A stretch of DNA of 64,000 nt. Source: Akkermansiaceae bacterium (GTDB lineage: Bacteria; Verrucomicrobiota; Verrucomicrobiia; Verrucomicrobiales; Akkermansiaceae). Below, piece by piece: positions 1-20,008 of this stretch; within the stretch, counting starts at the first letter, position 1, and every line of letters begins with the position of its first letter. The notes beneath the pieces are model-generated. The model did not search any database. It was not told the DNA's origin and worked only from the letters and a program-made list of their open reading frames with translations. Position numbers and translations under genes: made by a program. The stretch covers positions 1-64,000 of the forward strand of contig CAJIZY010000011.1 of the NCBI GenBank assembly GCA_905181965.1. The letters are read 5' to 3'.

Positions 1-139
1 GGAGAAAACCCTAGCTATGTAGATATGCCAATTTGGTATACTCATAATATTAAAAATATTGGAGAGATGCTTGATACTACTTTTTGGATAATGAACCTAT
101 AATTCAGAAGATGCAGATACTTTTTTTGAAGAAGTTTAA
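1..139 (+). CDS. capF: C-terminal end of CapF/WbjC-type UDP-sugar reductase (partial)
   Basis: The left edge of the window opens inside a reading frame containing VDMPIWYTHNIKNIGE followed by TTFW and, after two small frame slips near 95-105, YNSEDADTFFEEV and a stop at 137-139. This pattern fits the C-terminal cupin domain of CapF/WbjC/FnlB, the bifunctional C-3 epimerase/C-4 reductase of UDP-N-acetyl-L-fucosamine synthesis (family knowledge). The next gene is a CapG-type 2-epimerase, the following step of that pathway, which supports the call. Only about 45 residues are visible, so catalytic residues of the N-terminal reductase domain cannot be checked. Very AT-rich. Confidence 0.6.
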
Positions 140-156
140 ATTTATAAAACTATAAT

Positions 157-1276
157 ATGAAAAAATTAAAAGTTTTAACAGTAGTGGGTACTCGCCCCGA
201 AATTATAAGGCTTTCTCAAGTTATATTAAAGCTTAGATGATTCAGAGAGTATTGAACACATACTTGTTCATACAGGTCAAAATTATGATTATGAATTAAA
301 CGAAGTTTTTTTAAAGATTTAGGCTTAGAAAACCTGATTATTTTTTGAATGCAGCTGGTAGAAATGCCACTGTAACATCAGGTCAAATATTAATTAATAT
401 TGATCCTATTTTAGAAAACTAAATCCAGATGCTTTTTTAGTATTAGGAGATACAAACTCTTGTCTTTGTGCTATTCGCTGCTAAAAAAAGAAAATTCCAA
501 TATTTCATATGGAAGCTGGAAATCGTTGTTTTGATCAAAGAGTTCCTGAAGAGACTAATAGAAAAATAGTAGACCATATATCAGATGTAAATCTTACTTA
601 TAGCGATATTGCTCGAGAATATTTATTAAGAGAGGGTTTCCAGCGATAGAATAATTAAAACAGGGTCTCCTATGTTTGAGGTGTTAAATCATATGACTAA
701 GCAAATTGAAAGTTCTAATATCTTGAAAAATTAAAATTAAAAAAAGAAGATTATTTTTTAGTTTCAGCTCATCGTGAAGAAAATATTAATTCTTAAATTT
801 TATAAATTTATTGAAAGCTTAAATCTCATTGCTGAAACTTATAAACTCCAATAATATTTCGACACATCCCAGAACTAGAAATAAATTAATGACTGGAGTT
901 AAGTTTACATGAACTAATTCAATTGATGAAACCTATGGGTTTCATGATTATAATCATTTACAGAAATATGCTAAGGCAGTATTGTCTGATAGTGGTACTA
1001 TTTCAGAGGAGTCTTCTATTTTGAATTTTCCAGCCTTAAATATTCGTGAAGCTCATGAAAGACCTGAAGCAATGGAAGAAGCTTCTGTAATGATGGTAGG
1101 ACTTAATCATGAGCGGATTTTACAAGGGTTGGAAATAATATTAAATCAAAAAAGAGGCAATGAGCGAAAAGTATATCAAGTTGCAGATTATTCTAAACCA
1201 AATGTAAGTGAAAAAGTCTTAAGAATAATATTCATATACAGATTATATAAAGAGAAAAGTTTGGAATGAGCTGTAA
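157..1276 (+). CDS. capG: UDP-HexNAc 2-epimerase, CapG/FnlC (WecB) type, multiply frameshifted
   Basis: Starts at ATG 157 with [16 protein letters not shown], the WecB-family N-terminus. Further family blocks occur in shifting frames: [20 protein letters not shown] near 510-560, VSAHREEN near 760, and an intact C-terminal stretch from about 982 containing [20 protein letters not shown]. After a last slip near 1228 the frame reads [14 protein letters not shown] and stops at 1276. The enzyme inverts C-2 of a UDP-N-acetylhexosamine; next to CapF it would give UDP-L-FucNAc. At least six indels, nearly all in A/T runs, interrupt the frame; the otherwise conserved blocks favour sequencing error over decay. 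It overlaps the next gene by about 11 bp. Confidence 0.72.
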
Positions 1277-2491
1277 AAATATTCTCTTCATTACATTATT
1301 AAGAATAGACTCTATTGAAGAAAGAGGTATTTACCATGATTTGTTAAGAAAAATTCAAAGTAAGGGAAATAAAATATTTATAGTTTCTCCTCTTGAAAGA
1401 AGGTTGAAATTAAAGACAAATCTTTCAGTAAATGGTAATTCACAAATACTTAGTGTTAAGACCTTAAATATAAAAAAACAAACTTGTTAGAAAAAGGATT
1501 AGCTACCCTAGCTATAGAATACCAGTACTTATTTGCTATAAAAAAATATTTTAAAGATGTAAAACTTTTAATTAATTCTGAGATAGAAATGCCCTTATAC
1601 ATTGATAAGTTATTGGTTATATAAAGAAAAAAGATTGTGCTCTATCATATTTACTTTTAAAAGATATTTTTCCTCAAAACGCAATTGATCTAAAATTATT
1701 TACAAAAGATGGAATTATTCATAAATATTTTGTTAGAAAAGAAAAGAAATTGTATTCGATTTCTGATTATATTGGTTGTATGTCAAAGGCAAATATAGAT
1801 TATATAAAAACACACAATCCAAATTTAGATTTTAGCAGATTGTAATTAACCCTAATTCGATCTACCCCAATTTTATAAATTACTCATTATCTGAGAAAAA
1901 AATTGTAAAGTTGAAATACCAAATACCCCTTGATAAAAAAGTGTTTATATATGGTGGTAATCTAGGAAGACCTCAAGGTGTCGGTTTTTTACTTGAGACG
2001 ATTAGACTAACTAAAAGATCTGATGTTTATTTTTTAATTGTTGGATCTGGAACTGAGTTAAAAAAAATTAAAGAATGGTTTAAGGAAAATAAGCCAAAAA
2101 ATGCTACTCTAATTTCTATATTACCAAAAATTGATTATGATAAGTTACTTGCAGCCTGTGATGTAGGATTAATATTTTTAAATAAAAATTTCACAATTCC
2201 TAATTATCCATCTAGATTACTTTCTTATTTAGAAATGAAAATGCCTGTTATTGCAGCTACAGATCCAAATACTGACATCGGTATGGATATGAAAAGAATA
2301 AATGTGGATTTGGTATTATTTCTGGTGATTCTGTGGCAATGGAGAATGCTATAAACAAATTAATGGACAATGTTACTAGTTTTGATGAGATGAAAAAAAA
2401 TTCTTGGAGATTTTTGAATCGAGATTTTCATGTTGATCGATCTTTTAATTTGATTATGCAATCAAAAGATAAAGAGAATCAGGAACATTAA
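1266..2491 (+). CDS. WbuB-like family 4 glycosyltransferase, frameshifted
   Basis: ATG 1266 begins [15 protein letters not shown]. An in-frame block from about 1911 carries [19 protein letters not shown], then [13 protein letters not shown] and [16 protein letters not shown], and [21 protein letters not shown], the usual GT-B UDP-sugar-binding region of GT4 enzymes. After a slip near 2310 the frame continues to a stop at 2489-2491. Order and family resemble WbuB, which in O-antigen clusters follows the FnlABC enzymes and is thought to add L-FucNAc to a lipid-linked sugar. Predicted to be cytoplasmic or membrane-associated. Roughly 400 codons with several indels in A/T runs. Acceptor specificity cannot be judged. 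Confidence 0.7.
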
Positions 2492-2621
2492 TTCGGAAAT
2501 AATTATCTGCAATATCAACAAAAGGGATGATAATATTATTTGTATCAAGATTGTGCCGAGCAGTTGAGTCCTGAGCAGATTAGGGGCGAGCTTCCAAAAC
2601 ACCACTTAGCTTCGATCAGTC
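2492..2621. other. Composition boundary between AT-rich and normal-GC glycan genes
   Basis: Within about 130 bases the sequence changes from a very AT-rich stretch (by eye about 30 percent GC) to about 50 percent GC, which then holds for the rest of the window. A short open frame here resembles nothing I recognise. The boundary separates the L-FucNAc module from the 4-amino-sugar module and suggests the two were assembled from different sources. Confidence 0.55.
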
Positions 2622-3788
2622 ATGAAAGAGAATACTATACCCGTCACCATTCAAGAGATTATCAGCAAGGTCATCGACGCCCCGGAAGAGTTTACACCGA
2701 TGCACATCCCAATTTTCAATGAGCGGGAGATTGATCTGTTGCGGGAATGCGTTGAGTCAAATTTTGTGTCCTCTGTGGGGGCGTTTTGCGATCGGTTTGA
2801 AAGCTCTTTAGTGGAGTTCACCGGGGCGAGGCGTGCGGTTTTAACCGTCAATGGTACCTCCGCCCTCCATCTCTCCTTGATCCTAGCTGGAGTGGAGCGG
2901 AACGATGAAGTATTGATTCCGTCGTTTACATTTGTGGCTACGGCGAACGCAGTCCGCTACATTGGAGCGATCCCTCATTTCATTGAAATTGAGGACCAAT
3001 CATTAGGGGTGGATGTCACCAAATTATCGCAATGGTTGGAAACAACGACCGAGGCTCGCGAGGACGGAGTTTGGAACAAGTCCACCGGCCGGCGAATCCG
3101 TTGCCTCGTTCCTATGCATACATTCGGACACCCGGTGAATATGGATGCGCTCAATGCGGTCGCGGCTCGATTTGGTTTAGTTGTTGTTGAAGATGCCGCA
3201 GAGTCTTTGGGGTCGTATTACAGGGACCGTCATACAGGCAATGATTCGCTCTGTGCAGCGATTAGCTTTAATGGCAATAAGATTATCACAACTGGGGGTG
3301 GAGGAGCTATTCTTACAAATGATGATGATCTCGCAGATCGGGCAAAGCATTTATCAACTACCGCTAAAATCCCTCATTCCTGGGAGATGCGTCACGACGC
3401 GGTTGGTTTTAATTATCGCATGCCTGCTTTGAATGCAGCCCTTGGATGCGCCCAGATCGAAAAGTTGCCCGATTTTGTAGTAAAAAAGCGTGCGCTCGCG
3501 GCGCGTTATCGTGCCGCATTTGATGGCGTCGAGGGAGTTCGTTTTCTAAACGAACCAGAATGGGCTACCAGTAATTATTGGCTAAATACGCTGGTTCTTG
3601 ATGATGACTCGGGCGAGGCTCAAGAAAGTTTTCTCGAGCTTGCTAATAGTGAAGGAATTATGACCCGGCCTGCCTGGACCCCTCTCCATTTGCTTCCTCT
3701 TTTTTCTGATTGCCCGAAAATGGATCTAACGGTTACGGAAACCATGGCCCGTCGGGTTGTCAATATTCCGAGTACGGCTTCACTTTGA
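2622..3788 (+). CDS. LegC/PglE-type PLP aminotransferase for nucleotide-sugar 4-amination
   Basis: 388 residues of the DegT/DnrJ/EryC1/StrS fold. NGTSALHLSLILAGV (about 77-91) is the PLP-phosphate region, VVVEDAAESLGS (188-198) supplies the cofactor Asp, and SFNGNKIITTGGGG (215-228) contains Lys220, the likely Schiff-base lysine. The N-terminal NFVSSVGAFCDRFE and the GGGG after the lysine are typical of the LegC subgroup, which aminates the 4-keto group of UDP- or GDP-4-keto-6-deoxy-HexNAc. The next gene encodes the dehydratase that would supply this substrate. Family members usually end slightly later than SL, so the C-terminus may be shortened by an indel. Unbroken frame. Confidence 0.85.
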   Translation: MKENTIPVTIQEIISKVIDAPEEFTPMHIPIFNEREIDLLRECVESNFVSSVGAFCDRFESSLVEFTGARRAVLTVNGTSALHLSLILAGVERNDEVLIPSFTFVATANAVRYIGAIPHFIEIEDQSLGVDVTKLSQWLETTTEAREDGVWNKSTGRRIRCLVPMHTFGHPVNMDALNAVAARFGLVVVEDAAESLGSYYRDRHTGNDSLCAAISFNGNKIITTGGGGAILTNDDDLADRAKHLSTTAKIPHSWEMRHDAVGFNYRMPALNAALGCAQIEKLPDFVVKKRALAARYRAAFDGVEGVRFLNEPEWATSNYWLNTLVLDDDSGEAQESFLELANSEGIMTRPAWTPLHLLPLFSDCPKMDLTVTETMARRVVNIPSTASL

Positions 3789-3819
3789 GGTGCGACGATA
3801 ATTGCTAAATTTTACAGCT

Positions 3820-5009
3820 ATGAATCTAATGGAAGTTATAGGGCGTTCCCGAGCTCTCTTTGATAGTGACGTCCTTTCTCGTAAGCAGGAGCTTCGAGAA
3901 AAAGTAAAGGGCGCCCGAATCCTTGTCATTGGCGGTGCGGGGACGATTGGACAGGCGGTGGTGCGTGAGTTTTTTAAACGTGATCCTGCGTCTCTCCATG
4001 TTGTTGATATCAGCGAGAATAATCTAGTTGAACTGGTCCGTGATATCCGCAGCACGCTTGGATACGGGAGTGGAGATTTTCAGACGCTTCCATTGGATGT
4101 CGGAAGCCGGTATTTTGATGCCTTTGTTGAGTCACAGGAACCGTATGACTACATTTGTAATCTCTCGGCGCTAAAGCATGTCCGGAGTGAAAAAGATCCC
4201 TATACCCTAATGCGGATGCTTGAGGTGAATGTCTTCAATACCGTGAAGACAGCACGGATGGCTGCTCAGATGGGTGCGCGCAAGTATTTTGCGGTCTCGA
4301 CTGATAAGGCTGCCAACCCGTGAACCTGATGGGAGGCTCGAAGCGGATCATGGAGAAATTCCTGATGCGCGAGTCGCTGGATGTCTCTGTCTCGATGGCC
4401 CGATTTGCCAATGTGGCTTTTAGTGACGGAAGTCTGTTGCACGGTTTCAACCAGCGCTTGATGAAACGGCAGCCGCTCTCGGCGCCGAATGACGTGGAGC
4501 GCTACTTCGTGACACCTCAGGAATCTGGTGAGCTTTGCATGATGTCGGCAATTTTTGGGGAGAACTTAGATATTTTCTTTCCGCATCAAGAGGGTGAACT
4601 TGAGCTAACAAAATTTTCTGATATCGCGATTCGTTTTTTGGAAAGCCATGGATACGAGCCGGTCGAGTGCGAGACTGAGGACGAAGCGCGGAGCCGCGCC
4701 GAGGAATTGATTCCGAAACGACAATGGCCGGTTTATTTCTTTGCGAGCGATACTACGGGAGAAAAAGCTTACGAAGAGTTCTTCATGGGAGATGAGAAGC
4801 TTGATATGGAGTCATTCCAGGGAATCGGAGTCATTAAAAACCAACCTGATTTTGATAGTGGGGCACTTGAGCGATTTGAGCAAAAGATTTCTGAAATCAA
4901 AGGATCGCCGGCCCCGTGGGATAAAAAAGAAATTGTTGAGGCGTATCTCGGACTTCTTCCAGAGCTGAGTCATGAGGAAAAAGGAAAATATCTTGATTCT
5001 CGGATGTAA
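3820..5009 (+). CDS. UDP-GlcNAc 4,6-dehydratase-like polysaccharide biosynthesis protein (CapD/PglF family), one frameshift
   Basis: A soluble SDR-fold nucleotide-sugar dehydratase (CapD_epimerase family). The nucleotide-binding loop VIGGAGTIGQAVV lies near residue 40, LSALKHVRSEKDPY follows, and the active-site strand STDKAANP continues, after a one-base loss at about 4320, as VNLMGGSKRIMEKF. The TDK triad with Met at the usual Tyr position is the PglF/FlaA1 arrangement. It would convert UDP-GlcNAc to the 4-keto-6-deoxy sugar used by the upstream aminotransferase. A C-terminal extension of about 90 residues (EAYEEFFMGDEKLD region) is longer than in minimal enzymes and of unknown role. ATG 3820 is preferred; ATG 3829 is also possible. 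Confidence 0.82.
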
Positions 5010-5039
5010 TCTGTAGCAGAGTAAAATAATATTAATTTT

Positions 5040-5727
5040 TTGCATTTATCTCAGTACGTTATGTATCTAATCTTTAAAAGAGTCTTAGATGTGGGGGTTG
5101 CTTTTTTTGCCCTCGTTATTCTAACACCATTTCTTCTCCCGATAATTATAGGTTTGCGATTCACAGGTGAAGGCCACGTCTTTTACCGCCAGGAACGCGT
5201 TGGCCTTAAAAATAAAAAATTCTTAATTTGGAAGTTTGCCACGATGCTTCAGGACAGCCCCAACATGGATGGCGGGATACTGACGACAACAAATGATCCA
5301 AGGATAACTCCAATGGGAACTTTTTTAAGAAAGTCAAAAATTAACGAATTGCCTCAATTGCTTAATATTTTAGTTGGGAACATGAGTATCGTAGGGCCAA
5401 GACCTGTTGTAGAAGTTAGCTTCAAATCTTATCCAGAAGAAGTTCAAAAGATAATATATAACGTTAGTCCAGGTTTAACAGGAATTGGCTCTATCATATT
5501 TCGAGACAAAATATCTTTATTTTTATTTCAAAACAGTCTGAAAAGTTTTTTAGTTTTTACAAAAAAAATATATACCCCTTCAAAGGAGAACTAGAAATTT
5601 TCTATCAAGAAAATAAAGTTTTTTATTAGACATGAAAATAATTTTCGTAACAGCTTGGGTAATATTTTTCCCTCAAAGTCAAATTTACAAAAGAATTTTC
5701 AAAGGTCTTCCTCAGAGAAAAGTCTAG
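5040..5727 (+). CDS. PglC/WcaJ-type phosphoglycosyl transferase, two frameshifts near the 3' end
   Basis: Bacterial sugar transferase family. A hydrophobic segment (DVGVAFFALVILTPFLLPII, residues about 17-36) is the membrane-anchoring re-entrant helix. FYRQERVG, FLIWKFATM, DPRITPMGTFLRKS, NELPQLLNI and MSIVGPRPVV follow the family order, including the ELPQ-type element. Near 5505 an indel diverts the frame; the correct continuation reads SEKFFSFYKKNIYPFKGELE and, after another indel near 5615, LLDMKIIFVTAWVIFFP and ends PQRKV at 5727. The enzyme transfers a sugar-1-phosphate from a UDP-sugar to undecaprenyl phosphate. Neighbouring enzymes suggest a diNAc-bacillosamine-like substrate. Start ambiguous: the first codon is TTG, with ATG at 5061. 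Confidence 0.83.
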
Positions 5728-5894
5728 TGAATTTCCTAAGGTTGATGGGCACTAAGAGTCAAAATCAATTATTTGAACCTATCCAGGTGATTGAACTTTT
5801 TTTTGCTAAGGTTGCTTAACCGCTGGATCTAATTTTTTATAAGTTTAAGTCTACCACCAGTCTTCAAAAAATAATCCCATAAAATATTCTTATA

Positions 5895-7829
5895 ATGACA
5901 AATCATATCTTTGAAAAAGGATTGCGTATTAGATTGGTAGAGGAAAAATTACTGGAACTATTCCAAGAAGGGAAACTCAATGGGACTGTTCATACATGTA
6001 TTGGTCAAGAGCTCATTGGAGTGTGTCTTGCAGAGAATCTTAAACATGAAGACTATGTGATTTCGAATCATCGCGGCCATGGTCACCTCCTCTCACGGGA
6101 GGATGATCTCACTGCGTTTTTCGCTGAGTTAATGGGGCGTAAGAATGGAATTTGCCAAGGTATGGGAGGAAGTCAGCACCTTTGCACATCAAACTTTTTA
6201 TCGAATGGCATTCAGGGCGGAATGACTCCGCTGGCAGCAGGTCTAGCCATGGCCCAAAAGATCAGAGGAGCTGGCCAAGTTGTCTGCTGCTTCATTGGTG
6301 ATGGGACTCTTGGTGAAGGGATTATCTATGAAGCCTTTAACATTGCGGCTAAATGGGAACTCCCTGTTATCTACGTTCTGGAGAATAACCGCATCGCTCA
6401 ATCCACAAGCATCAAACAAACCTTGGCTGGCGATATCCAAAAGCGCGCTGAAGGATTTGGCTTGAAGTATCAGAAGACTAATATTTGGGATGTTGAGGAT
6501 ATGATCAGAACCTTTGGTGAAGCCGTCTCGAATGCCCGCGAACATTCAACTGCGCAGTTCGTCGAAGTCGATGTCTACCGCTTGTATTCTCATTCCAAGA
6601 GTGATGACAACCGCGATGCCTCAGAAGTCGCGAGCTTCCGAGAGAAAGATCTCTTGGGTAAATTTTTAGCGGAAGACCCTTCGGCTACTGATTATGCCGC
6701 CGCCACAAAGCAAGAAATCAATGCTGCCGTTAAAAAAGCGGCGGAAGGAGCGTTATTGACTGAGTCTCCCAAGCAGCCACAGAGAGAAGATTCCGTAAGC
6801 TTCGCTCCGATAAAGCATATCGAAGGAAAGCGTGTGAATGAGCTCATCTATGAAGCTCTGAAAACGCAGTTCGAACAGGACAATCGGACTGTGCTCATCG
6901 GAGAAGATATTCAGTACGTAACCAAGTTCACCCCAGAACCTTATGGAGGTGCCTTTAAGGTAACGAAGGATTTGAGCGAGCGTTTCCCTCACGTTCATAA
7001 CACTCCCATCAGTGAGGCGGCGATTGTTGGTATTGGCAATGGTCTCGCGATCGGTGGGCAGCGGGCCATTGTCGAGGTCATGTTTGGCGACTTCCTCACT
7101 CTGGCCTTCGATCAACTCCTCAATCACGCTTCGAAATTCCGCACCATGTTTGCGGGTAAAGTAAATGTTCCTCTTCTTGTCCGGACGCCGATGGGTGGCA
7201 GACGTGGCTATGGCCCGACTCATAGTCAATCAATCGAAAAATTCTTCTTAGGGATTCCTGATCTCTGTGTCTTAGCGTTGAACCATCGTGTCGATCCCCG
7301 CAAGGTTTACGCCTCAGCATTTCAAGAAAATGGTCCAGTGCTCATGATCGAGAATAAGGTGCTCTACACACAGATGTTAGATACTGATGCTCCTGCTGGC
7401 TTTGAACTCGCACTGACGAATGAAGCCTACCCAGTGGTGAAAATGACCCCGATAGGCCGTTCTCCAGAGGTAACGATTCTTTGTTACGGTGGAATGTTAA
7501 ATGAAGTCGAAAAAGCGGCTCAGACAGCTTTCGTCGAAGAAGAGATTTTATGTGAAATTATTTGCCCAACACAGATTAATCCAGCTGGTAGAAAAGTGGT
7601 TGCTGAGTCTGTTAGATCTACGGGACGACTCGTCGTTGTCGAAGAAGGAAGTAGTGTCGCTGCCTTCGGTTCCGAGGTTGTGTCGTCATTACTGGAAGAT
7701 GGAGTTCCGATCCGTGCGGTGAAACGTCTAGGAAATAACGAAATTATCCCAAGCTCGTTTGAAGGAGAACTTGAATGCCTCCCAAGCGTTCAGTCCATTT
7801 TTAAAAGCATAGTAGAAATAAGCTCATGA
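5895..7829 (+). CDS. Fused E1 alpha-beta 2-oxoacid dehydrogenase (thiamine-diphosphate dependent)
   Basis: 644 residues combine both E1 subunits. Residues 1-290 are E1 alpha: SNHRGHGHLLSR (57-68), MGGSQHL, and the ThDP/Mg motif GDG (135-137) ending with NN (164-165). Residues 311-644 are E1 beta: RTVLIGEDI, PISEAAIVGIGNGLAIGG (371-388) with the cofactor Glu, and RGYGPTHSQSIEKFF with the likely catalytic His443. The family decarboxylates a 2-oxoacid and reductively acylates a lipoyl domain. Such E1 genes normally sit with an E2 acyltransferase and an E3; here the partner is a lipoyl-PglD fusion, overlapping by ATGA (7826-7829), inside a sugar-nucleotide cluster. The true 2-oxoacid cannot be read from sequence. 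Unbroken frame. Confidence 0.93.
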   Translation: MTNHIFEKGLRIRLVEEKLLELFQEGKLNGTVHTCIGQELIGVCLAENLKHEDYVISNHRGHGHLLSREDDLTAFFAELMGRKNGICQGMGGSQHLCTSNFLSNGIQGGMTPLAAGLAMAQKIRGAGQVVCCFIGDGTLGEGIIYEAFNIAAKWELPVIYVLENNRIAQSTSIKQTLAGDIQKRAEGFGLKYQKTNIWDVEDMIRTFGEAVSNAREHSTAQFVEVDVYRLYSHSKSDDNRDASEVASFREKDLLGKFLAEDPSATDYAAATKQEINAAVKKAAEGALLTESPKQPQREDSVSFAPIKHIEGKRVNELIYEALKTQFEQDNRTVLIGEDIQYVTKFTPEPYGGAFKVTKDLSERFPHVHNTPISEAAIVGIGNGLAIGGQRAIVEVMFGDFLTLAFDQLLNHASKFRTMFAGKVNVPLLVRTPMGGRRGYGPTHSQSIEKFFLGIPDLCVLALNHRVDPRKVYASAFQENGPVLMIENKVLYTQMLDTDAPAGFELALTNEAYPVVKMTPIGRSPEVTILCYGGMLNEVEKAAQTAFVEEEILCEIICPTQINPAGRKVVAESVRSTGRLVVVEEGSSVAAFGSEVVSSLLEDGVPIRAVKRLGNNEIIPSSFEGELECLPSVQSIFKSIVEISS

Positions 7830-8905
7830 GTGGTAAGTATAGCCCTGTTACTGTCGGAAAAGAAGGAGTCAGCGATGATTTTTATACGGTTGTTAGAATT
7901 TTTTACAAAGATGGAGATAAAGTAGAAGAGGATGATATTCTTCTTACCTTTGAGACATCAAAAGCGGCAATTGATTTTCCTGCGGATGCAGATGGTTACT
8001 TTTTCTCTCTCGTGGCAGAGGGAGATGAAATTGTAGTTGGCGATACCATTGCTGTGATCGCGGAGGAGGAGAGCTTTGACAAAAGTGGCCTCAAAAGTGA
8101 GTCCCCACCCTCTAGCTCAGTCGGAGATTCTGCGGACATGCGCGTGTCCAAGCCTGCACAACGGCTGATGGACGAACATGGCTTAACGCTAGAGGATTTT
8201 CCCGGGTCAGAGCTCATTTCGAAAGATGATGTCGAAGCGCAAGTTCGCGTAGCAAACTCAAACGTAGACCTTTCGTCTCTGGAGGTGAGGGAAAACAGCG
8301 TTCTCATTCTAGGAGGAGGTGGCCATGCTAAAATGTGCATCGATATCATTCGCCAGCAAGGAGCGCTGGAGCCGATTGGAATCACAGATACCATTAAAAC
8401 TCCAGGAGAAGGCGTCTTCGGTATCCCCGTGCTCGGTGGTGATGAAGTTCTTCAGACTCTCCGAGACAAAGGTGTAAAGCTAGCTGTTCTGGGTGTAGGC
8501 GCTGTGCTCAATCATTCTGTTCGTGAAAAGCTTCATGCGAAGCTCATGGAGCATGGCTTCCAAGTGCCAAATATCATTCATCCATCTGCGAGCATCGAAC
8601 CATCAGTGGAACTGGGAGATGGGAATCAAATTATGCAGGGAGCGATCATTGGTTCCGCTGTGACTATCGGTGATAATTGTATCGTGAATTCCGGCAGCGT
8701 CATTTCACACGACTCCTCAATCGCTAACCATGTCCACATCGCTCCGGGAGCCGTTCTCGCTGGCAGTGTCCAAGTTGGAGCAGGATCAGTCGTCGGGATG
8801 GGATCTACGGTTTTCCTAGGAGTTCAGGTAGGTCAAAATGTGATGATCAACAATGGGGTCAATATTTTTGATGACGTCGCTTCAGATTCGATTGTTAAAG
8901 AATAA
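7826..8905 (+). CDS. Lipoyl domain / peripheral subunit-binding domain / PglD-type sugar N-acyltransferase fusion
   Basis: 359 residues in three parts. Residues 5-80 form a lipoyl domain with FETSKAAIDF around Lys46, the expected lipoylation site. Residues 104-140 (RVSKPAQRLMDEHG, then SELISKDDVEA) match the E1/E3-binding domain of E2 proteins. Residues 157-359 are a NeuD/PglD acyltransferase: a sugar-nucleotide-binding Rossmann start (VLILGGGGHAKMCIDII) then left-handed beta-helix hexapeptides. Its VISHDSSI places His295 at the PglD catalytic His, and VHIAPGA supplies a second His304. The E2 catalytic domain is absent. Coupled to the upstream E1 by a 4-bp overlap. Inference: E1 charges Lys46-lipoyl with an acyl group and the PglD domain moves it to a 4-amino-sugar nucleotide. 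Direct transfer without CoA is untested. Confidence 0.9.
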   Translation: MSGKYSPVTVGKEGVSDDFYTVVRIFYKDGDKVEEDDILLTFETSKAAIDFPADADGYFFSLVAEGDEIVVGDTIAVIAEEESFDKSGLKSESPPSSSVGDSADMRVSKPAQRLMDEHGLTLEDFPGSELISKDDVEAQVRVANSNVDLSSLEVRENSVLILGGGGHAKMCIDIIRQQGALEPIGITDTIKTPGEGVFGIPVLGGDEVLQTLRDKGVKLAVLGVGAVLNHSVREKLHAKLMEHGFQVPNIIHPSASIEPSVELGDGNQIMQGAIIGSAVTIGDNCIVNSGSVISHDSSIANHVHIAPGAVLAGSVQVGAGSVVGMGSTVFLGVQVGQNVMINNGVNIFDDVASDSIVKE

Positions 8906-9288
8906 AACCCTCAAACAAAGAAAGGGCGTAGTTCTCTCTGCGTTTAATATTTTTAATGCAGAAATGGTCGTTGGTGTGAGGGAGATAGCTCAAGAGTTGG
9001 CGACTCAGTTTTTGTCTATACGTCTAGCTCTACCGTGAAATACTATGGAGCTGAGAGACTAATTAGTTTGATCTGCCAGATAGGAGCCGAGCAATTTGTC
9101 TCAGACAACGTGATTATCCATCTCGACCGTTGTAACGATAACGCAATTATCCAGCAGTGCCATTGCATTGATCTTCAACCCAGAACATTAGAGCGGGCAG
9201 GGTTCTCGAAAAAATAAGCAACAGATTGGATTTTTTATTAAACCTAGATAGACATTAAGTGCTAGCAAAGTATCCTTTGTTCCGAAGG
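8906..9288 (+). other. Unassigned stretch with possible frameshifted remnant
   Basis: About 380 bases follow the acyltransferase fusion without a recognisable gene. One frame around 8990-9217 reads GDSVFVYTSSSTVKYYGAE and continues open for about 60 codons to a TAA at 9215-9217; an upstream frame gives VVLSAFNIFNAEMVV. These could be pieces of one short, indel-broken protein or gene debris. No domain is recognised and no terminator-like hairpin is evident. Confidence 0.35.
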
Positions 9289-10847
9289 ATGGATAATCTT
9301 ACCCCCACTTACGCCCTTGCCTTCATCGCAACGGCGTTTTTTGTTTCGATGATTCTTACGAGAATCTTCATCGCGGTGGGGCCGCGTTTGGGTTTGATGG
9401 ACGAGCCTGGTGAACGGCGGGTTCATGTGACGCCGGTGCCTCGTGCCGGGGGATTGGCGATTTGGATGGCATTCCTCATCGTCCTTTGGGTCGCTGATGC
9501 CATTTTCCCGAATTTATTTGTCGGTCATCATCACACCAAAAATATTGCTTGGACGATTTCGAGTGCGATATTGATTCTGGTTGGCTTTATTGATGATCGG
9601 ACTGGCCTTAAGCCGCTGGTGAAGCTGGCAGGGCAGGCAATTGCGGCGGCGGTCTTTTGTTACATCTACTATCCCGAGGGATTTACGATCGCTGGCTTTC
9701 AGTTCCCTTATGCCGGTCGCGCTTGTGATTTTCGTGATCTGGTGTGTCGCCTTGATCAATGCCTTTAATTTGATCGATGGTCTGGATGGTTTGTGCGGAG
9801 GCCTCGTGGTCGTAAGCCTCAGCATGATTTTAGCGATTGCCTGGAGTAATGGGAACTGGAGAGATTCCGCTTTTATCATTCTTATGATTGGGGCTGTTGC
9901 GGGTTTTCTGGTTTATAATTTTAATCCAGCCCGGATCTTTTTGGGAGACGCGGGTTCGATGATGTGGGTTTTTTCATCGCTCTTCGCAACGAATGCTCGG
10001 GCTCGAACGCTGCGCTCATTGGCTCGCTCATGCTTCCGATCGCGATCGCGGGGGTGCCATTGCTCGACGTCATCGTGCGATCTGGCGTCGGAGCTCGCGG
10101 CGAGAACTTGCAGAAAACTCAGGGCGATGAGAAGAAAGGAGGGCTTTTTTCAGCCGACAAAGACCACTTACACCATCGTTTGCTCGAGATGGGGCTGAGC
10201 CAGCGGAAGGTGGCTCTCATTCTTCAGCTATTCGCGGTGATTATCGCAGGTTTGTGTCTTCTTCCGATGGTAGCTGGAGGTAGGGCTGTCGTAGTCACCA
10301 TATTCGGATTTTTAATTGTTGGGCTCTTTAGTGTGAACCACTTTGCGCGGATCGAGCTGACGGAAGCTGGAAATTTAATGCACGTCAAAATTAAGAGCCG
10401 GACTCTGGGGCTCTCGAACCGGGGGCTACACTTTATTTATGATGTTGGAGCTCTCATATTTGCGTGCTTTTTAGCGATGGTTGTTGAAACAAATTTTGGC
10501 CGTCGTCTCGATGCGCAGCATGTTTGGTCAATCAATTATCCGCTCCTCTTTATAGTAATCGGGATGGTTCTGTTAAGTTATTTGACGGGCCTTGCCCATA
10601 GGTGTTTTTGCTGACTTTTTTGTGGTGGGGGGCGACAAACTACAGCGGTCTTCTGGCTTCCTTAGTTTGGTCCTTGAACAAGGAGGATGTGACATGGTCC
10701 GATTATCGAGCGGGTTTGCTAGCTGGGCAGTTTTCACTTTGGTTGGTGCTGGCACCCCGCGCAATCCCAGTCATGTTGCGGGAATTTAAGGTGTGCTCAG
10801 ACAAGCGCCGATCCGATTCTAAGGATTCATCAAAAAAGCGGTCTTAG
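9289..10847 (+). CDS. WecA/MraY-like undecaprenyl-phosphate sugar-1-phosphate transferase, frameshifted
   Basis: A polytopic membrane enzyme of glycosyltransferase family 4 (PNPT). Diagnostic motifs occur in order: VHVTPVPRAGGLAIW, GFIDDRTGLKPLVKLAGQ (catalytic DD), INAFNLIDGLDGL, FNPARIFLGDAGSMM and KDHLHHRLLEMG (nucleotide-binding His cluster). Three indels (about 9725, 9970 and 10600) break the frame, and each side resumes the expected membrane topology. It would attach HexNAc-1-phosphate to undecaprenyl phosphate, starting a second lipid-linked glycan. The protein continues past the usual WecA length with more hydrophobic segments (LLTFLWWGATNYSG) and a basic Ser/Lys linker. ATG 9289 fits the family N-terminus; GTG 9259 is an alternative. 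Confidence 0.85.
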
Positions 10848-11161
10848 TCTATGGCGCTGGAGCCAATGGAGCCCACTTGATCGATTTTATCAAGGTAGGC
10901 GGGAGCGAACGAATCTCGAAGTTCCAGATTGTCGGCTTCTTGGACGAGCATCGGAGCTTCAGGGGGAGGCTTTTTAGATGCTTTAAGGTATTTGGGGGCT
11001 GGACCAACTTGGGGGAGCTGAGCAAAAAGGAGAATCTCGATGGTTTGGTGGTCACAATTTCCAAGCTTTCGGACGAGCGGTGGGTGGAGCTGATGAATGA
11101 AACGAAGGCTCATGGGCTAAAGCTTTATCGCTGGGGTGTGATAAAGATTTTCGCCTGGTAG
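10845..11161 (+). CDS. Rossmann-fold nucleotide-binding segment, probably the C-terminal domain of the preceding transferase
   Basis: Reading from about 10831 in the +1 frame gives KKAVLVYGAGANGAHLIDFI, then FQIVGFLDEHRSFRGR, GGWTNLGEL, LDGLVVTISKLSDERW and KAHGLKLYRW. This is the pattern of the CoA_binding_3 Rossmann domain at the N-terminus of polysaccharide polymerising or nucleotide-sugar enzymes (YGAGxxG loop, GFLDD, GGxxxL). Because the sequence runs directly out of the Ser/Lys linker of the WecA-like protein after one indel near 10838, a single fused polypeptide ending at 11161 is likely. A separate small gene remains possible. Confidence 0.55.
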
Positions 11162-11398
11162 AAGAGTCCTCAAATGAAAGTGAGAGCCGGGCGGACTCTT
11201 GAAGGCTAAGAGAGACGTTAGGTGCTTTTTTTACCGCGCTGCTTTTTGAAAGTGAGAGTAAAAGAAACGCACTGCGACTTGTGATAGCCAAAGAATCAGC
11301 CTAGGTTTCCCAAGGCAACAGTTTATCGCCGCACACCTTTTCTAAATGGTTTCGCTTAATTATTTAATCTCAATAAATCTCGGCGATTTCTAGGAGCC

Positions 11399-12781
11399 GT
11401 GTCTTTGGTGCTTGCCTTTTTGTTGCCTATTACTCCGGCTTTCGCGGCTGAAGCTGACCTGTCCTGGACCGATCTATCACAAGAGTATGATGGGCAGTTA
11501 AAATCTCCGGTAGTGACCACGGAACCACCAAACCTCGAGGTCACCCTAGAGTATTTCCCAAGGTCAAATTCCGAGGTGCTTTTCCAGCGGATTCCTGAGG
11601 TCGACCAACCTTCCTATCCCAGCTACGGGCTCAATGGAAAAGTGGACATAGCGTCTGGCGACTCTGGTTGATTTAGAAATAGATAATCAACGGTTGGAAT
11701 CGGTCGACGTCGCGATGGTGAATTTCGCGCAAGCCGCAAGTTGGCCTCAACTCGCCGAGGAAAATTCTCGAGGGGTATTTTCATCCGCTCACGCTCACAA
11801 TCTATCGGGTCCTCGGTGATGATTTGTTCCTTGTGACCGAGAAGACTCAGGATTTTCTCATTCCGTGGCGGCCTGCGACCTTGGATGATGGCGGGGAATA
11901 TCCTTTTGGGGGCAGGGCCTTTCGGGCACGATTCAATTTTACGGAAGAGCAGTTTTTGGCTGGGTAATCTCGCCCTTGTGATTTCGTATAATACCAATCA
12001 AGGCGGCCCAGCACCACTTGGGGTGGCCGGCCCTTATGATAGTCTCAATGTCGCTTTGAATGATGACACTCCATTGGTTGGAAGCGACGATAACCCTTCT
12101 CGGGTGATCCGGCAGACTGCCACTAGCATCTTCCAATCTGGAGCTTTTGGAACGAGGGCTCCGATGTTCGTGGTGCGTGGGTTTCCCGCCTCTCCTGCAA
12201 CCGGCCAGCCCATCGAGGCAGGCGGTTATCTTGTTCGGGCCACTGTTGATGACGGCGACTTTACTGCTGAGGCCTACGAAAATTTTGAGATTACCCCACA
12301 GGAGGTCGAGCTTGATTTGCTTGGGGTTCGCCAAGTCGCGGACGGGTCTCCTAAGACCATCGAAGTGGCCGAGATTCCGGAGGGGTCTTCGGTCGAGGTG
12401 GTCTTTGCGAAGCGGGATGATCTTCCGGTGGAGGAGGGACTCTATCCCTTCTTCGTGCGCCTGAGCGGAGGGAATTTTTCGGGTTCCCGATCCGGAGTGA
12501 TGCGTCTGGTGGCTGACGAGGATACTTCACCGCTCGTGATCACCTCAATTTCCACTGCTGCCAATGGTGATGTGTCGCTCACGTGGAACTCACGGGAGGG
12601 GCAAACTTATGCGATTCTTGCCAAAGATGATCTGAACGAATCTGATATTAGTCTATGGGATGAGCTCGATGGCAGCATTGAATCACAGGGTGCTTCAACG
12701 ACGGCCGTGATTTCGAGCGAAGTCGTTCACTCGATCACCGATACCGGTAAAATATTCTTCCGAGTCCGCAAGCAGAGATAG
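11399..12781 (+). CDS. Secreted beta-sandwich protein with verrucomicrobial C-terminal module, frameshifted
   Basis: A GTG start is followed by a hydrophobic export signal (LVLAFLLPITPAFA). The N-terminal block LSQEYDGQLKSPVVTTEP resembles the opening of MBG/Ig-like repeats. After two indels (about 11665 and 11885) a long segment from about 11885 contains ITPQEVELDL and several short beta-rich repeats. It ends with a module of about 80 residues (ITSISTAANGDVSLTWNS to IFFRVRKQR) that recurs in two other exported proteins of this window. Function unknown; exported, possibly surface-attached. It lies between two glycan-assembly membrane proteins but need not act with them. A terminator follows. 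Confidence 0.6.
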
Positions 12782-12811
12782 AATTAATCAAAATTACGAT
12801 TTCTCAAGGCT

Positions 12812-12840
12812 GCCCGTTTAATCTCGGGCGGTCTTTTGTA
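12812..12840 (+). terminator. Rho-independent terminator
   Basis: GCCCG (12812-12816) pairs with CGGGC (12825-12829) across an 8-base loop, followed by GGTCTTTTGT. It lies 30 bases after the stop of the secreted protein. Confidence 0.6.
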
Positions 12841-12959
12841 TTTTATATTGAGGGGGCGGTTCCCTCAACTTTTGTTTTTCTTTTTCTTTTTGGATAGTGA
12901 TTTTGAACCTTTGAAGTGGGGACGTTGACTCTCTCTTCTAAATTGTATTGGCTCGTTGC

Positions 12960-14903
12960 ATGATCGGTTTTTCGGAAAGAGCAAGTGGCGAGGTTTCGCC
13001 TCCCCGGGTCGGCTTGTTTTTGATCGGGACGATTTTCTTGGTGGTTCTCGGAGCGTCCGCCCCTTGGCATCTCCGATTGGGCATGGCCCTTCTTCCTCTG
13101 GGGCTCTTGATGGTGTTCTCTTCCGCGTGGTTCGTTTATCCCGCCCCTCCTTGTTTTTAGGATGCGGAATGGTTCTTCTCAGTTTGGGTGCCTTTCTGCC
13201 CGCCGATCTCATCGGTCGCCCTGGCTGGCGAGATGGACTGGAAGCGCTCGGCGTGGAAACCGGAAAGCTGAACGTCATCCAATGGCAGATGGCCCTAGAA
13301 TATCATGCGGTCTATTTGTTCTTAGCTTTTGCCGCGTTCTGGATTTTGGGGCTACGCTTTTCGGCGCGCGCCACTTCTCAATTGGCCCTAGCCTTTGTGA
13401 TGGCGGTGGCTTTCTACGCGATCATCGCAAAGATTTCTGAGAATCAGTTGGCCCTCAATCGAGGGGGTAGAGAGGCCTTTGGTTTTTTCCCCAATCGAAA
13501 TCATAACAGTAATTTTCTCAGCCTTGGATTTGTTTGCGGGCTTGGGGCTTTCTTTCAAACGATCCGTTCCAAGCACTTTGTCCGGATGGCCATCCTGCTG
13601 ATTTGCAATGGAGTGATCCTCTGGGCGGTCTTCAGTTGGAACATGAGCCGGTCGGGAATCGTTTTGTGCCTCCTCGGGCCCTGTTTGTGGTTCATCGGCT
13701 TGGGGTGGCGGTATTTCGGGAAAAATGAGCTCAAGGCCTTCGCCTTGATCTTTCTCCTGGGAGTCGGGGTGTTCGTCCTCAACCAATTTGGCGTCAAAGA
13801 ACGGCTTTCCGGGACAGTCGAAAAAATCGAGGAGACTTTTGCTGATGAGATGTCGCCATAGAGAACAAGCGCCTTCCCTTGACGATGTCGATTTCCGGGT
13901 TCCGATCGCTCGGGATACTTTTCAACTGATTGGGAGCTTTCCTTTGACTGGGGTGGGTTCAGGTCAGTTTCGTTGGGTCTTCCCGCAGTATCGCGATCTG
14001 ACCGTCACGGCTCATACCTCCGTAGCGCCCACCCAGAAAGTAGTTGGTATTGGCTGGCAGCAGAATGGGGGCTTCCCGCGGCTCTTTGCCTCCTTGTGTT
14101 GGTGATCTCTCATCTACGTGGGTGGGTATCGGAACATCCGTAAACGGGGCAATCGAGACTCGTGCGCTCCGTTTTGGCTGCCTCGTAGCTTCAGCAATGG
14201 TCCCCTTGCATTCCCTTTTTGATGTCCCGGCTCATCGCCCCTCGCTTTTGCTCGCTTCTCTCGTTCTCTTCGTGATTTCCCAGAACCACCAAGCCGCCCC
14301 GGAGCTCGCTCCCAAGAAATGGTCCCGGGCTCTCGGAGTGGTCGTCGGATTATGCCTAATAACAACTAGCGTTCTTTTCCTCGGAGCTTCTTCCTTTGGT
14401 TGGAGGAAGCCTCTCATTGTGCAATCTGCTGAGGACCTGGCCCAGGGAGCGGAACTTTATAAAAAAACCAAAGAGGAGTTTAATCCTTTGAATCCACTAC
14501 AAAGTCTTCAAATGAGGAAAGAGGTCGTTGAAGTGGCGGGTCAAATCACGAGGGATGTCCCTCTCGATGGCCGGCTATACCGCTTGCGGGCTCTTGCCTC
14601 GCTTCCGCTGGTTGACCGGAACGAAGAAACGGCCGCTGGACTTTGCGATCGATCGCGCCCTCATCCCTTTTTCTATTCGCATCCCCAAGATCCATGCCGC
14701 GGCCTCACTTCCCTATTTGGATGAGGAAGTCGCAAAGGGCTGGCAGGCTGCCCTTGAAAATGCCGATCGCGATTGATGAGATTAAGGGAGAAGAAAGCCG
14801 TGAGCGGAAGCGGTTAATCAACTCAATCCGTTCGGTGGTGGGACAAAACCCACACCTTGAAGCGATGGCCCTTGAGATCATTGGGATCGAGAAATTTGAG
14901 TAA
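12960..14903 (+). CDS. O-antigen ligase / Wzy-like polytopic membrane protein, heavily frameshifted
   Basis: Hydrophobic helices dominate the first two thirds. The family signature FFPNRNHNSNFLSLGFVCGLGA, shown here in part as PNRNHNSNFLSLG, lies near 13490, and the periplasmic GVGSGQFRWVFPQYR near 13950 is the usual GxGxGxF element of Wzy_C proteins. Reading through indels near 13140, 13855, 14075, 14145, 14640 and 14775 gives one protein of about 640 residues ending EIIGIEKFE. The C-terminal 150 residues are soluble and helical, as in longer O-antigen-ligase-like proteins with a TPR-like tail. It would polymerise or ligate lipid-linked glycan on the periplasmic side. The many breaks could also mean a pseudogene, but the reading blocks are well preserved. 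Confidence 0.72.
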
Positions 14904-15014
14904 TCTGGAGCGGTGAGAAAAGCTCTTATTTGATCGCTGGAAGCATCCGTGGTTAGGAAATGAAAAGAAAATTATAATATTTAGCTCAATTAAATTTAGG
15001 CATTTAATAAGATT

Positions 15015-15066
15015 AAAAAAGACCGCTTGAGACACAGCTTGTTTGCTGGTTCGAGCGGTCTTTTTT
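15015..15066. terminator. Strong bidirectional terminator
   Basis: AAAAAAGACCGCTTGA (15015-15030) pairs with TCGAGCGGTCTTTTTT (15051-15066), with one mismatch near the loop. A-run and T-run flank the stem on either side, so it can stop transcription from the ligase gene (plus strand) and from the convergent gene at 15092-15547. Confidence 0.85.
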
Positions 15067-15091
15067 AATTTGAGTGTTTAAATAAATGAAT

Positions 15092-15547
15092 TTAAGCAAG
15101 ATTCCAAGTCGTCCCCCGACCTTTCCCTGTTGGCCTTACATGCCCTTCGCTTTTCAATCGGCTGAGTAGTGGTGAGGCGGTTTCGTTAATCTGCGCACTA
15201 ATCTCTCCAGCGGTGATTCCAGGGTGCTGCCTTATGAGGTCTTTGACCCTAGTGAGTAACTCTTGGGTCGCCTCTTTCGTTCGGCGGGTATTGTTTTTAC
15301 TTGATCGGCGCTTTGGTGATTTTTCGATATTAACGCCTAAGGCGCTTAGCTTTGCATTTAATTCAGCACGGATATTTTGTATTTCATTTTCAAGAGCCGT
15401 GATTTTATCTTTATATTCTGCTTTAATTTGATTCGCTTTCTTTTCCTTGAACGAATCTAATTGTGAGAGAAATTCGGGGTTAGTCGATAATTCGAGAAGT
15501 CGTTCCATCTCTTGATCCGTCGCGCTATTGCTTTCTGTATTAAACAT
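15092..15547 (-). CDS. Coiled-coil protein with C-terminal winged-helix-like domain
   Basis: 151 residues. Residues about 15-70 are charged and heptad-like (FKEKKANQIKAEYKDK, ALENEIQNIRAELNAKL), predicting a coiled coil for oligomerisation. A basic linker (SPKRRSSKNNTRR) leads to a C-terminal domain (about 92-151: LLTRVKDLIRQHPGITAGEI, then LLSRLKSEGHVRPTGKGRG) that resembles a winged helix with a wing at KGRGTTW. The layout is like H-NS-type chromatin proteins (oligomerisation, linker, DNA-binding domain), but I see no homology to a named family. A perfect AT-rich inverted repeat lies directly upstream and may be its own operator. Confidence 0.7.
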   Translation of the reverse strand: MFNTESNSATDQEMERLLELSTNPEFLSQLDSFKEKKANQIKAEYKDKITALENEIQNIRAELNAKLSALGVNIEKSPKRRSSKNNTRRTKEATQELLTRVKDLIRQHPGITAGEISAQINETASPLLSRLKSEGHVRPTGKGRGTTWNLA

Positions 15548-15557
15548 GTAATTATAA

Positions 15558-15582
15558 TTATAATTAATTCTATTAATTATAA
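15558..15582. promoter_or_regulatory. Perfect 11-bp inverted repeat, likely operator
   Basis: TTATAATTAAT (15558-15568) and ATTAATTATAA (15572-15582) are exact reverse complements around TCT. The repeat sits 11 bases upstream of the start codon of the minus-strand coiled-coil gene, where a regulator would block transcription or initiation. All A/T, so part of the symmetry could be a promoter coincidence. Confidence 0.5.
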
Positions 15583-15615
15583 GTAATTCTTAGTTCATAG
15601 AATTAAAATCTTTTC

Positions 15616-15978
15616 CTAGCTCCTCCTCGCGTTGCGACCTTCATCGATGAGCTTCCAGAAGTGCTTTGAATCGGCCAGTGCTTCGTCTTCTCCTACGGGG
15701 AGTTTCAATCGGAAAAGAAAATCATTAAAAGTTCCGCGGTGAAGGACGCGGTGCACGACGACTTGCTCGTCGACAGCCTCGAAATAGAAGCGCCATTCCT
15801 GGGTCCGAAATCGGTAAAGGGTTTTGCCATCCCGCTCGATCTTTCCAAAGCGCTCGTCCTCAAGATGCTCCAGGTCATCTCGCGTCACCTTGAATTCATC
15901 GAGGAGCTCGAGTTGTTCAAGGGTATCGAGCTGGGAGATTTCAGCCGCACTGATTTCGTTGAAGACGATCTGTAGCAC
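15616..15978 (-). CDS. RelE/ParE-like protein, possible toxin
   Basis: 120 residues. The central part LYRFRTQEWRFYFEA and VVVHRVLHRGTFNDFLFR matches the beta-sheet core of RelE-superfamily proteins annotated as cytotoxic translational repressors. The basic residues of the sheet (RFRTQEWR, HRVLHR) are where RelE toxins bind RNA. The N-terminal 35 residues are helical. No standard antitoxin precedes it; the only same-strand neighbour is the coiled-coil protein 68 bases downstream, which has its own candidate operator. It may be an orphan or domesticated toxin, or a toxin-first pair. Opposite to and diverging from comM. Confidence 0.6.
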   Translation of the reverse strand: MLQIVFNEISAAEISQLDTLEQLELLDEFKVTRDDLEHLEDERFGKIERDGKTLYRFRTQEWRFYFEAVDEQVVVHRVLHRGTFNDFLFRLKLPVGEDEALADSKHFWKLIDEGRNARRS

Positions 15979-16067
15979 GGCGGGACCATAGGCAAATTTT
16001 TCGCCGGACTCAAACTTCGTGAAACAAAAGGATGAAATGAGTACAAAAGAACACTATATTGTATTTG

Positions 16068-17618: not shown

Positions 17619-17686
17619 GACGAGAGGAGTGAGTTCTTGCTGATCTATTATTTGGAAGAGCTTCTTAGATCTTTCTTTGCGAAAAG

Positions 17687-17713
17687 CCCCCGGATATTTT
17701 CCGGGGTCTTTTT
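17687..17713 (+). terminator. Rho-independent terminator after comM
   Basis: CCCCGG (17687-17692) pairs with CCGGGG (17701-17706) across an 8-base A/T loop, followed by TCTTTTTT. Confidence 0.85.
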
Positions 17714-17785
17714 TAATTACGGGGTTTGCCGTACTTGGAATTTCCAGTCTACACTCGCGTGTGAAGGTTCCCTGAAGATGGTCTT

Positions 17786-19940: not shown

Positions 19941-20008
19941 CCCGCTTTTGGCGGGAGTTTGAAGGTTCGATTTCCAACCTTCAAACTCCGCAGCCAGATG
20001 CTGCGGAG
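19941..20008 (+). promoter_or_regulatory. Three consecutive hairpins between nrdB and nrdA, two mutually exclusive
   Basis: Hairpin 1: CCCGC (19941-19945) with GCGGG (19951-19955), starting right after the nrdB stop. Hairpin 2: GGAGTTTGAAGGTT (19954-19967) with AACCTTCAAACTCC (19976-19989), a perfect 14-bp stem. Hairpin 3: CTCCGCAGC (19986-19994) with GCTGCGGAG (20000-20008), a perfect 9-bp stem. Hairpins 2 and 3 share CTCC and cannot both be complete. None has a T-run directly after it. They could slow 3' decay of the nrdB part or tune read-through into nrdA. Confidence 0.6.

Follow-up and report, generated by a model that had tools for sequence, protein, structure and literature searches.

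A candidate two-protein, lipoyl-dependent module for the N-acylation of nucleotide amino sugars in an Akkermansiaceae bacterium

Two kinds of described system bear on the gene pair reported here. The first loads two-carbon (C2) units: QncN, QncL and QncM direct the making and attachment of a glycolicacyl unit and SclQ1–4 are proposed, by homology, to convert a ketose phosphate (PMC6335953), while DinS/DinU, homologues of NapB/NapD, are taken to produce, from xylulose 5-phosphate, a hydroxyethyl unit that is loaded onto a carrier protein (PMC7570522). The second is the PglD group of acyltransferases, where acetyl-coenzyme A (acetyl-CoA) is wedged between the subunits of a PglD relative, and a proline of the last turn adopts the cis form when CoA is bound and the trans form in its absence (PMC8040287). 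The stretch analysed here (the window) comprises positions 1–64,000 of contig CAJIZY010000011.1 from an Akkermansiaceae bacterium; it is a contig start, and the genome is 2.64 Mb in size and 61.6% complete. In the window, a gene for an E1 alpha-beta fusion and a gene for a lipoyl-PglD fusion share a 4-bp ATGA overlap. The initial annotation had given the coordinates of the pair, the overlap, the lipoyl lysine Lys46 and the catalytic His295, all of which proved exact when the sequence was re-read. Judging from the sequence, we propose with moderate confidence that the two proteins form a CoA-free module that N-acylates nucleotide amino sugars, the donor most likely being a ketose phosphate. The features of the pair are as follows.

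5895–7829, + strand: E1 alpha-beta fusion, 644 aa, a thiamine diphosphate (ThDP) enzyme (Pfam/NCBIfam, tree, clade-fixed residues)
~5895–6740, ~6834–7388 and ~7437–7826, + strand: alpha part, beta pyrimidine domain and C-terminal domain of E1
6066–6068 and 7221–7223, + strand: clade-specific Asn58 and His443 of the GPTH stretch of E1
7826–8905, + strand: fusion of lipoyl domain, degenerate subunit-binding-like segment and PglD/NeuD acyltransferase, 359 aa, its start overlapping the E1 stop by 4 bp
7826–8080, + strand: lipoyl domain with FETSK, Lys46 (7961–7963) being the predicted lipoylation site (Biotin_lipoyl, Foldseek, invariant ETSK)
8135–8260, + strand: peripheral-subunit-binding-like segment of two helices without the usual GxGxxG loop (alignment with E2 proteins, pattern check, model)
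8291–8902, + strand: PglD/NeuD domain, with a nucleotide-sugar-binding N-terminal part to ~8569 followed by a left-handed beta-helix
8708–8710, 8762–8764 and 8852–8854, + strand: transferase residues His295, Gly313 and Asn343 (counts against 39 canonical proteins)

A peptide-pattern scan of a species-genome collection, which used exact patterns and thus missed distant members, revealed three proteins related to the fusion, with 40–44% identity to the window protein; they are encoded in Polaromonas, a gammaproteobacterial metagenome-assembled genome (MAG) and Polaribacter (loci L001, L002 and L003). The gene order is the same in all three, the E1 gene ending inside the start of the fusion gene. 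The genome search suggested in the initial annotation, for the E1 and lipoyl-acyltransferase pair with sugar neighbours, thus yielded three further overlapping pairs with an aminotransferase near each, and a sugar aminotransferase lies near the pair in 4/4 loci (recognised as Pfam DegT in the window and L002, while the NCBIfam sugar-aminotransferase models stayed below cut-off in L001 and L003). Since L002 also encodes NeuC and NeuB, both above cut-off, and a dehydratase, the product there probably feeds nonulosonic acid synthesis; in L003 an initiating transferase adjoins the module. A chance join or an annotation artefact was rejected, as the overlapping pair recurs in four lineages and the PglD domains form one clade. 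Profile searches (profile A1, E ≤ 1e-60; the sets were samples, and in the larger ones scoring covered the top 5 or 6 candidates of each genome) recovered the seed genome only, in the window's own phylum (1/387), the family and class of L003 (1/397 and 1/324), the family of L001 (1/349) and the order and class of L002 (1/25 and 1/303). None of the 21 matching plasmid records covered 80% of the fusion, and a pattern search found no fusion among viral contigs. The E1 matched 27 phage records, of which the five listed were acetoin-type or unannotated. The module thus seems to be rare and scattered, which would fit horizontal transfer.

The E1 protein matched the Pfam families E1_dh, Transket_pyr and Transketolase_C, all above cut-off; the alpha and beta domains and the GDG-NN motif for ThDP are present, and the nearest solved structures are pyruvate or branched-chain E1 enzymes. 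Its SNxH and GPTH stretches are presumably transketolase-like motifs. Among 711 plasmid records with hits, the best match, 43% over the full length, was RenH of the renieramycin plasmid, which has RenF, a nonribosomal peptide synthetase (NRPS), upstream and RenI, a protein with lipoyl and E2 catalytic domains, downstream. Other close matches belong to a Streptomyces NRPS cluster (L017) in which genes for an acyl carrier protein (ACP), E1 alpha, E1 beta and lipoyl-E2 follow one another, a polyketide synthase (PKS) locus of S. cattleyicolor, a Nonomuraea locus that has a lipoyl-E2 and a gene with a reductase domain, and a Paenibacillus cluster (L020) where two ACPs and an E2 accompany a ketosynthase-like gene. 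In a tree of 20 rows, the three full-length E1s of the sugar loci and five E1s from NRPS/PKS clusters (RenH of L016 and the E1s of L017, L018, L020 and L021) formed one branch (100/100, stem 1.36), and the remaining 12 E1s, including acetoin-type, Bacillus pyruvate and branched-chain enzymes, lay outside it. A beta-only tree to which L003 was added agreed with this clade (the Smel row was omitted from the later E1 trees). Ten positions, among them Asn58, Gln94, Thr138 and Tyr439, are fixed in 8/8 clade E1s and absent from 12/12 others, one of the ten, position 550, lying in a column that is gapped in 11 of the 12. The lipoyl proteins adjoining the five NRPS/PKS E1s carry the E2 catalytic domain (PF00198) in 5/5 cases.

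Within the clade, RenH (L016:4947–8115, RenH/RenI, MK748464.1) nests among the sugar E1s, though RenI has an E2 catalytic domain. It pairs with the E1 of L002 (98/97 with the full length; 85/85 with the beta part only). A clade of sugar-module E1s excluding RenH is disfavoured by this pairing (approximately unbiased test p 0.043), and the beta-only tree still allows it. The histories of the E1 and of the transferase, whose PglD domains form one clade, may differ, and the two domains may have been re-paired. In a separate observation, a Priestia plasmid carries an E1-E2-E3 set (L019:4903–12761) beside a sorbitol phosphotransferase system operon and sugar-binding regulators, and the substrate of this set may be other than the annotated pyruvate.

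Since the window E1 falls in the RenH/NRPS-PKS clade and such enzymes are described as acting on ketose phosphates, the acyl group would be glycolyl; the SclQ1–4 set resembles the gene set of L017. The initial annotation had derived the acyl group from a 2-oxoacid, which the placement of the E1 makes less likely and which is probably wrong. It would still be conceivable, albeit unlikely, that the same direct lipoyl-to-sugar transfer is fed by an E1 that decarboxylates pyruvate, 2-oxobutyrate or a branched-chain 2-oxoacid, attaching acetyl, propionyl or another simple acyl group. Such a route would accord with the fold of the E1, which is that of the 2-oxoacid dehydrogenase family, and with the pepteridine system, whose E1 and E2-NRPS use 2-oxoacids according to the feeding and 13C results of PMC5384830, the acyl group ending on a pterin nitrogen. 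It is opposed by the position of the window E1 inside the RenH/NRPS-PKS clade and outside the pyruvate, acetoin and branched-chain E1s, with 100/100 support and fixed residues of its own. In addition, acetyl would hardly need this machinery, as an ordinary NeuD/PglD uses acetyl-CoA.

At the N-terminus of the fusion, Biotin_lipoyl (Pfam) was found at residues 18–78 (E 1.2e-10, above cut-off), and Foldseek matched this domain to solved E2 lipoyl domains (e.g. 2q8i_B, TMt 0.75). The E[TS][DS]K lysine turn of 2-oxoacid dehydrogenase complexes is present, with ETSK invariant in 4/4 fusions, and Lys46 is presumably lipoylated. Biotin in place of lipoyl is not favoured, because ETSK is of the E2 lipoyl type and not MKM, which is the biotin motif. 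A plain E2 of a pyruvate complex was rejected as a reading, since the E2 catalytic core (CAT, PF00198) is absent from 4/4 fusions by Pfam. The E1/E3-binding domain that had been assigned to residues 104–140 was borne out only as a two-helix segment at that place (helices at 109–117 and 133–144 in the AlphaFold model): Pfam recognised no subunit-binding domain in 4/4 fusions, and the GxGxxG loop is missing. The loop was found in 0/4 fusions, 0/5 lipoyl-E2 partners of the NRPS/PKS-clade E1s and 10/10 other E2s (19 proteins, 14 scored by pattern and 5 by eye; the ten ordinary E2s comprise seven of the former and three of the latter). The lipoyl motif of the five NRPS/PKS-clade partners is ETSK in 4/5 and SSSK in the Paenibacillus cluster; the Cupriavidus protein of locus L024 also has an SK motif but keeps the loop. 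A lipoyl-domain tree, built without three E2s (Priestia, Acinetobacter and branched-chain keto acid dehydrogenase) that the motif search missed, had no starred branch, and the long Smel row joined the ACP side.

The transferase part matched PglD_N (residues 159–240) and Hexapep of Pfam above cut-off and TIGR03570 of NCBIfam (NeuD/PglB/VioB; 180.2 bits against a cut-off of 160.8, profile positions 2–196 of 202), and its nearest solved structures are PerB, PglB, PglD and VioB. For comparison, 39 ordinary NeuD/PglD proteins were used: 8 from plasmids, 2 carrier-genome paralogues and 29 from the own phylum, where 30 loci had been found and L073, being identical with the window, was excluded. The catalytic His295 is conserved in 39/39 canonical proteins and 4/4 fusions, and the oxyanion Gly313 in 37/39 and 4/4; their spacing of 18 residues equals that of His142 and Gly160 in Pcryo_0637 (PMC8040287). 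The C-terminus is different. A GxP tail ends 36/39 canonical proteins vs 0/4 fusions (Fisher p 2.8e-4, a value that ignores kinship). The window fusion ends 8 residues past Val351 with no GxPA tail, and the tail beyond this residue is 7–9 residues long in the fusions, compared with 14 or more in 38/39 canonical proteins. The G-A-G coil of the canonical set (G in 36, A in 33 and G in 35 of the 39) reads N/A/S/Q-N-G/Q in the fusions, position 343 being Ala in 33/39 canonical proteins vs Asn in 4/4 fusions. In a tree of 43 proteins the four fusion PglD domains formed one clade (100/100, stem 1.08); therefore, the tail and coil changes represent one evolutionary event and not four independent losses. 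The changed C-terminus beside the CoA site, together with the retained catalytic residues, supports acyl transfer that would proceed without CoA. An enzyme that still uses acyl-CoA, with a lipoyl part that recruits E1/E3 or acts as a regulatory or scaffold element and an E1 that acylates CoA through a housekeeping E2, could explain the TIGR03570 score above cut-off, the intact catalytic residues and the lipoyl-bearing E2-like paralogues found in three of the genomes. Nevertheless, we consider it improbable, since 4/4 fusions have a lost or altered GxP tail and GAG coil, the E1 clade is one found beside carrier proteins, and the fusion has been kept across distant lineages.

Carrier proteins were sought with a profile built from six carrier domains. 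It matched in 6/6 comparison loci (L016, L017, L018, L020, L021 and L024), weakly in L021 (2.9e-4), and in a held-out control it recovered the carriers of L017 (6.6e-9) and L020 (8.1e-7 and 5.7e-5). By contrast, it gave no match at E ≤ 1 in 480 frames from positions 1–20,000 of the window and from L001, L002 and L003. As neither PF00198 nor a carrier match was found, the sugar modules are without an E2 core and a carrier in the stretches examined. The initial annotation had reported neither an E2 core nor an E3; this holds for the open reading frames (ORFs) around the pair but not genome-wide, because lipoamide dehydrogenase (E3) is encoded elsewhere. The window genome contains, away from the locus, lipoamide dehydrogenase, LipA, an E1 paralogue and a lipoyl-bearing paralogue, and LipA and E3 scored above cut-off in the genomes of the window, L001 and L003.

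In the proposed mechanism, the E1 fusion would bind ThDP and cleave a ketose phosphate, for example xylulose 5-phosphate, to a C2 carbanion, which the oxidised lipoyl group on Lys46 would oxidise and take up as S-glycolyl-dihydrolipoyl. The lipoyl arm would then swing into the active site, which would lie where subunits of the PglD trimer meet. There, with His295 acting as base and Gly313 as oxyanion hole, the glycolyl group would be transferred onto the 4-amino group that the LegC-type aminotransferase had introduced. Finally, a general E3 encoded elsewhere would reoxidise the dihydrolipoyl group; such an enzyme would be needed by the sugar module just as the E3 of the pepteridine system was proposed to be borrowed from the host (PMC5384830). 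The resulting diamino sugar nucleotide would bear a glycolyl (or another acyl) group on its 4-amino nitrogen and would feed the synthesis of surface glycans or nonulosonates. The lipoylation, the donor, the acyl identity and the direct transfer are what we infer from these comparisons. Thus, of the lipoyl-to-sugar transfer suggested initially, the CoA-free direct step is supported by the conserved fusion, the single PglD clade, the aminotransferase in 4/4 loci and the changed CoA-side C-terminus, while its donor is the part we would replace. Among the literature titles and abstract starts listed there was no clear case of N-glycolyl diamino sugars. A review names other 4-N-acyl groups on bacillosamine, and a term search of it gave no "glycolyl" (PMC3210612).

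Several points weigh against a ketose-fed, CoA-free module. The ketose link comes from cluster arrangement and papers, and the clade was assigned via RenH and not by alignment to a characterised enzyme; moreover, the Scl and Din roles are themselves homology-based proposals (PMC6335953, PMC7570522). Pepteridine output rises with 2-oxobutyrate and pyruvate, and 13C-2-oxobutyrate is incorporated (PMC5384830). As this related arrangement uses labelled 2-oxoacids, our confidence is slightly lower, the pepteridine E1 not being among the rows of the E1 trees. The ACP-neighbouring Cupriavidus E1 of L024 is of ordinary type and lies outside the clade. The tail loss could instead reflect shifted CoA binding. 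The fold model of the fusion is of moderate quality (AlphaFold, predicted local distance difference test score 71.5), and its whole-chain template modelling scores are low because the domains float. Only four fusions are known, the Polaribacter E1 is without the alpha half, and neither LipA nor E3 was found above cut-off in the L002 genome, a 1.0-Mb MAG, where their absence may also be a gap. Lastly, the dehydratase of the window itself is frame-broken.

Two of these loci deserve description on their own. On the Cupriavidus plasmid, the operon (L024:2411–5807) consists of E1, E2 with a DTSK lipoyl motif and an acyl carrier protein, and is possibly a separate case of carrier loading. Because it combines SK and ACP with an ordinary E1, the clade is not defined by SK by itself or by ACP loading by itself. 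The Polaribacter E1 (L003:8700–9993) starts in the middle of the beta part; the one upstream frame read (8700–9200) has many stops, and no ORF of at least 130 aa encodes an alpha half, which was either truncated away or lost in assembly.

Upstream of the pair, the window contains the following sugar genes.

2622–3788, + strand: LegC-family sugar aminotransferase (TIGR04181, 499.9 bits against a cut-off of 420)
3802–5009, + strand: Polysacc_synt_2-type nucleotide-sugar dehydratase, frame broken near 4320 (two ORFs, profile 1–134 and 135–290 of 293)
5040–5594, + strand: Bac_transf initiating sugar transferase (PglC-like) with an atypical C-terminal part (PF02397, E 1.4e-43, profile 1–142 of 179)

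We liken this gene set to the bacillosamine route PglF-E-D-C. The aminotransferase is the presumed source of the amine to be acylated. The frames of the dehydratase (3802–5009) and of a glycosyltransferase-like gene (9259–10614) are split into overlapping ORFs, pointing to assembly base errors or decay. That the module is a horizontally acquired relic, decaying or non-functional in this genome, is very improbable: the broken frames of the neighbouring dehydratase and others, the very sparse distribution in the samples searched and the Polaribacter locus without E1 alpha would fit such a state, but neither of the two window genes is truncated or interrupted, their catalytic residues are kept, and the frame breaks may be assembly errors in a genome that is 62% complete.

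If correct, a beta-helix acyltransferase that moves an acyl group directly from a lipoyl arm onto an amine would represent a new strategy of acyl donation; such a transfer is undescribed in the literature titles and abstract starts searched, a scope outside which most subscription papers fall. In that case, the N-glycolyl groups borne by surface amino sugars and nonulosonic acids would be produced independently of glycolyl-CoA and would be coupled to sugar metabolism. This could explain the placement of N-glycolyl on the surface sugars of some bacteria, and it would connect the chemistry of nucleotide sugars with the use of C2 units in tetrahydroisoquinoline natural products. A route with two proteins and no CoA could also serve to install chosen acyl groups on amino sugars. 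More tentatively, and with something less than even confidence, we suggest that the lipoyl arm joins CoA and ACP as a third acyl carrier in the N-acylation of sugars, that a PglD-type enzyme traded its CoA site for a tethered lipoyl domain which a transketolase-like E1 charges with glycolyl from a ketose of the pentose phosphate pathway, and that the module arose when an NRPS-type C2-loading system had its acyltransferase domain exchanged, or that the exchange ran in the opposite direction.

Compared with known systems, the pair resembles the glycolyl (C2) loading enzymes of NRPS clusters, of the QncN/QncL, NapB/NapD, SclQ2–4 and, presumably, RenH/RenI type, where an E1-type ThDP protein likewise adjoins a lipoyl protein; QncN and NapB are likened to the sugar E1 by description and cluster layout, the sequence link running via RenH. 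The RenH-type systems have their E1 clade in common with the sugar E1s (100/100), and their lipoyl partners are likewise without the GxGxxG loop; two loci of the C2-loading type, L017 and L020, have no E3 annotated in the stretches shown, as around the window pair. The RenH-type systems differ in having an E2-type catalytic domain (PF00198, 5/5) and carrier matches in 5/5 loci, where the sugar module has a PglD-type beta-helix and no carrier match. The pepteridine system (plu2796, PMC5384830), likened here by description, also has an E1-like protein and a lipoyl/E2-like fusion that put an acyl group, without free acyl-CoA, on a small-molecule nitrogen after an NRPS step, but its donors are 2-oxoacids, it works with a condensation domain and the arm of a carrier protein, and it is not a sugar system. 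With the pyruvate, acetoin and branched-chain 2-oxoacid dehydrogenase complexes, the module has E1 and lipoyl chemistry and the lipoyl fold in common, and it differs from them in the absence of an E2 core and of a visible E3 in the locus, in its E1 clade and in a binding segment without the usual loop; CoA is an unlikely acceptor in it. The PglD, NeuD, VioB and PerB N-acetyltransferases belong to the same family as the transferase part by hidden Markov model and structure, with the same catalytic His, oxyanion Gly and sugar-gene surroundings, whereas the fusion adds N-terminal lipoyl and binding-like segments and a dedicated E1 and has the CoA-side tail and coil lost or changed. We conclude that known kinds, lipoyl C2 loading and PglD N-acylation, are recombined here, and that the pairing of acceptor and donor is the novel part.

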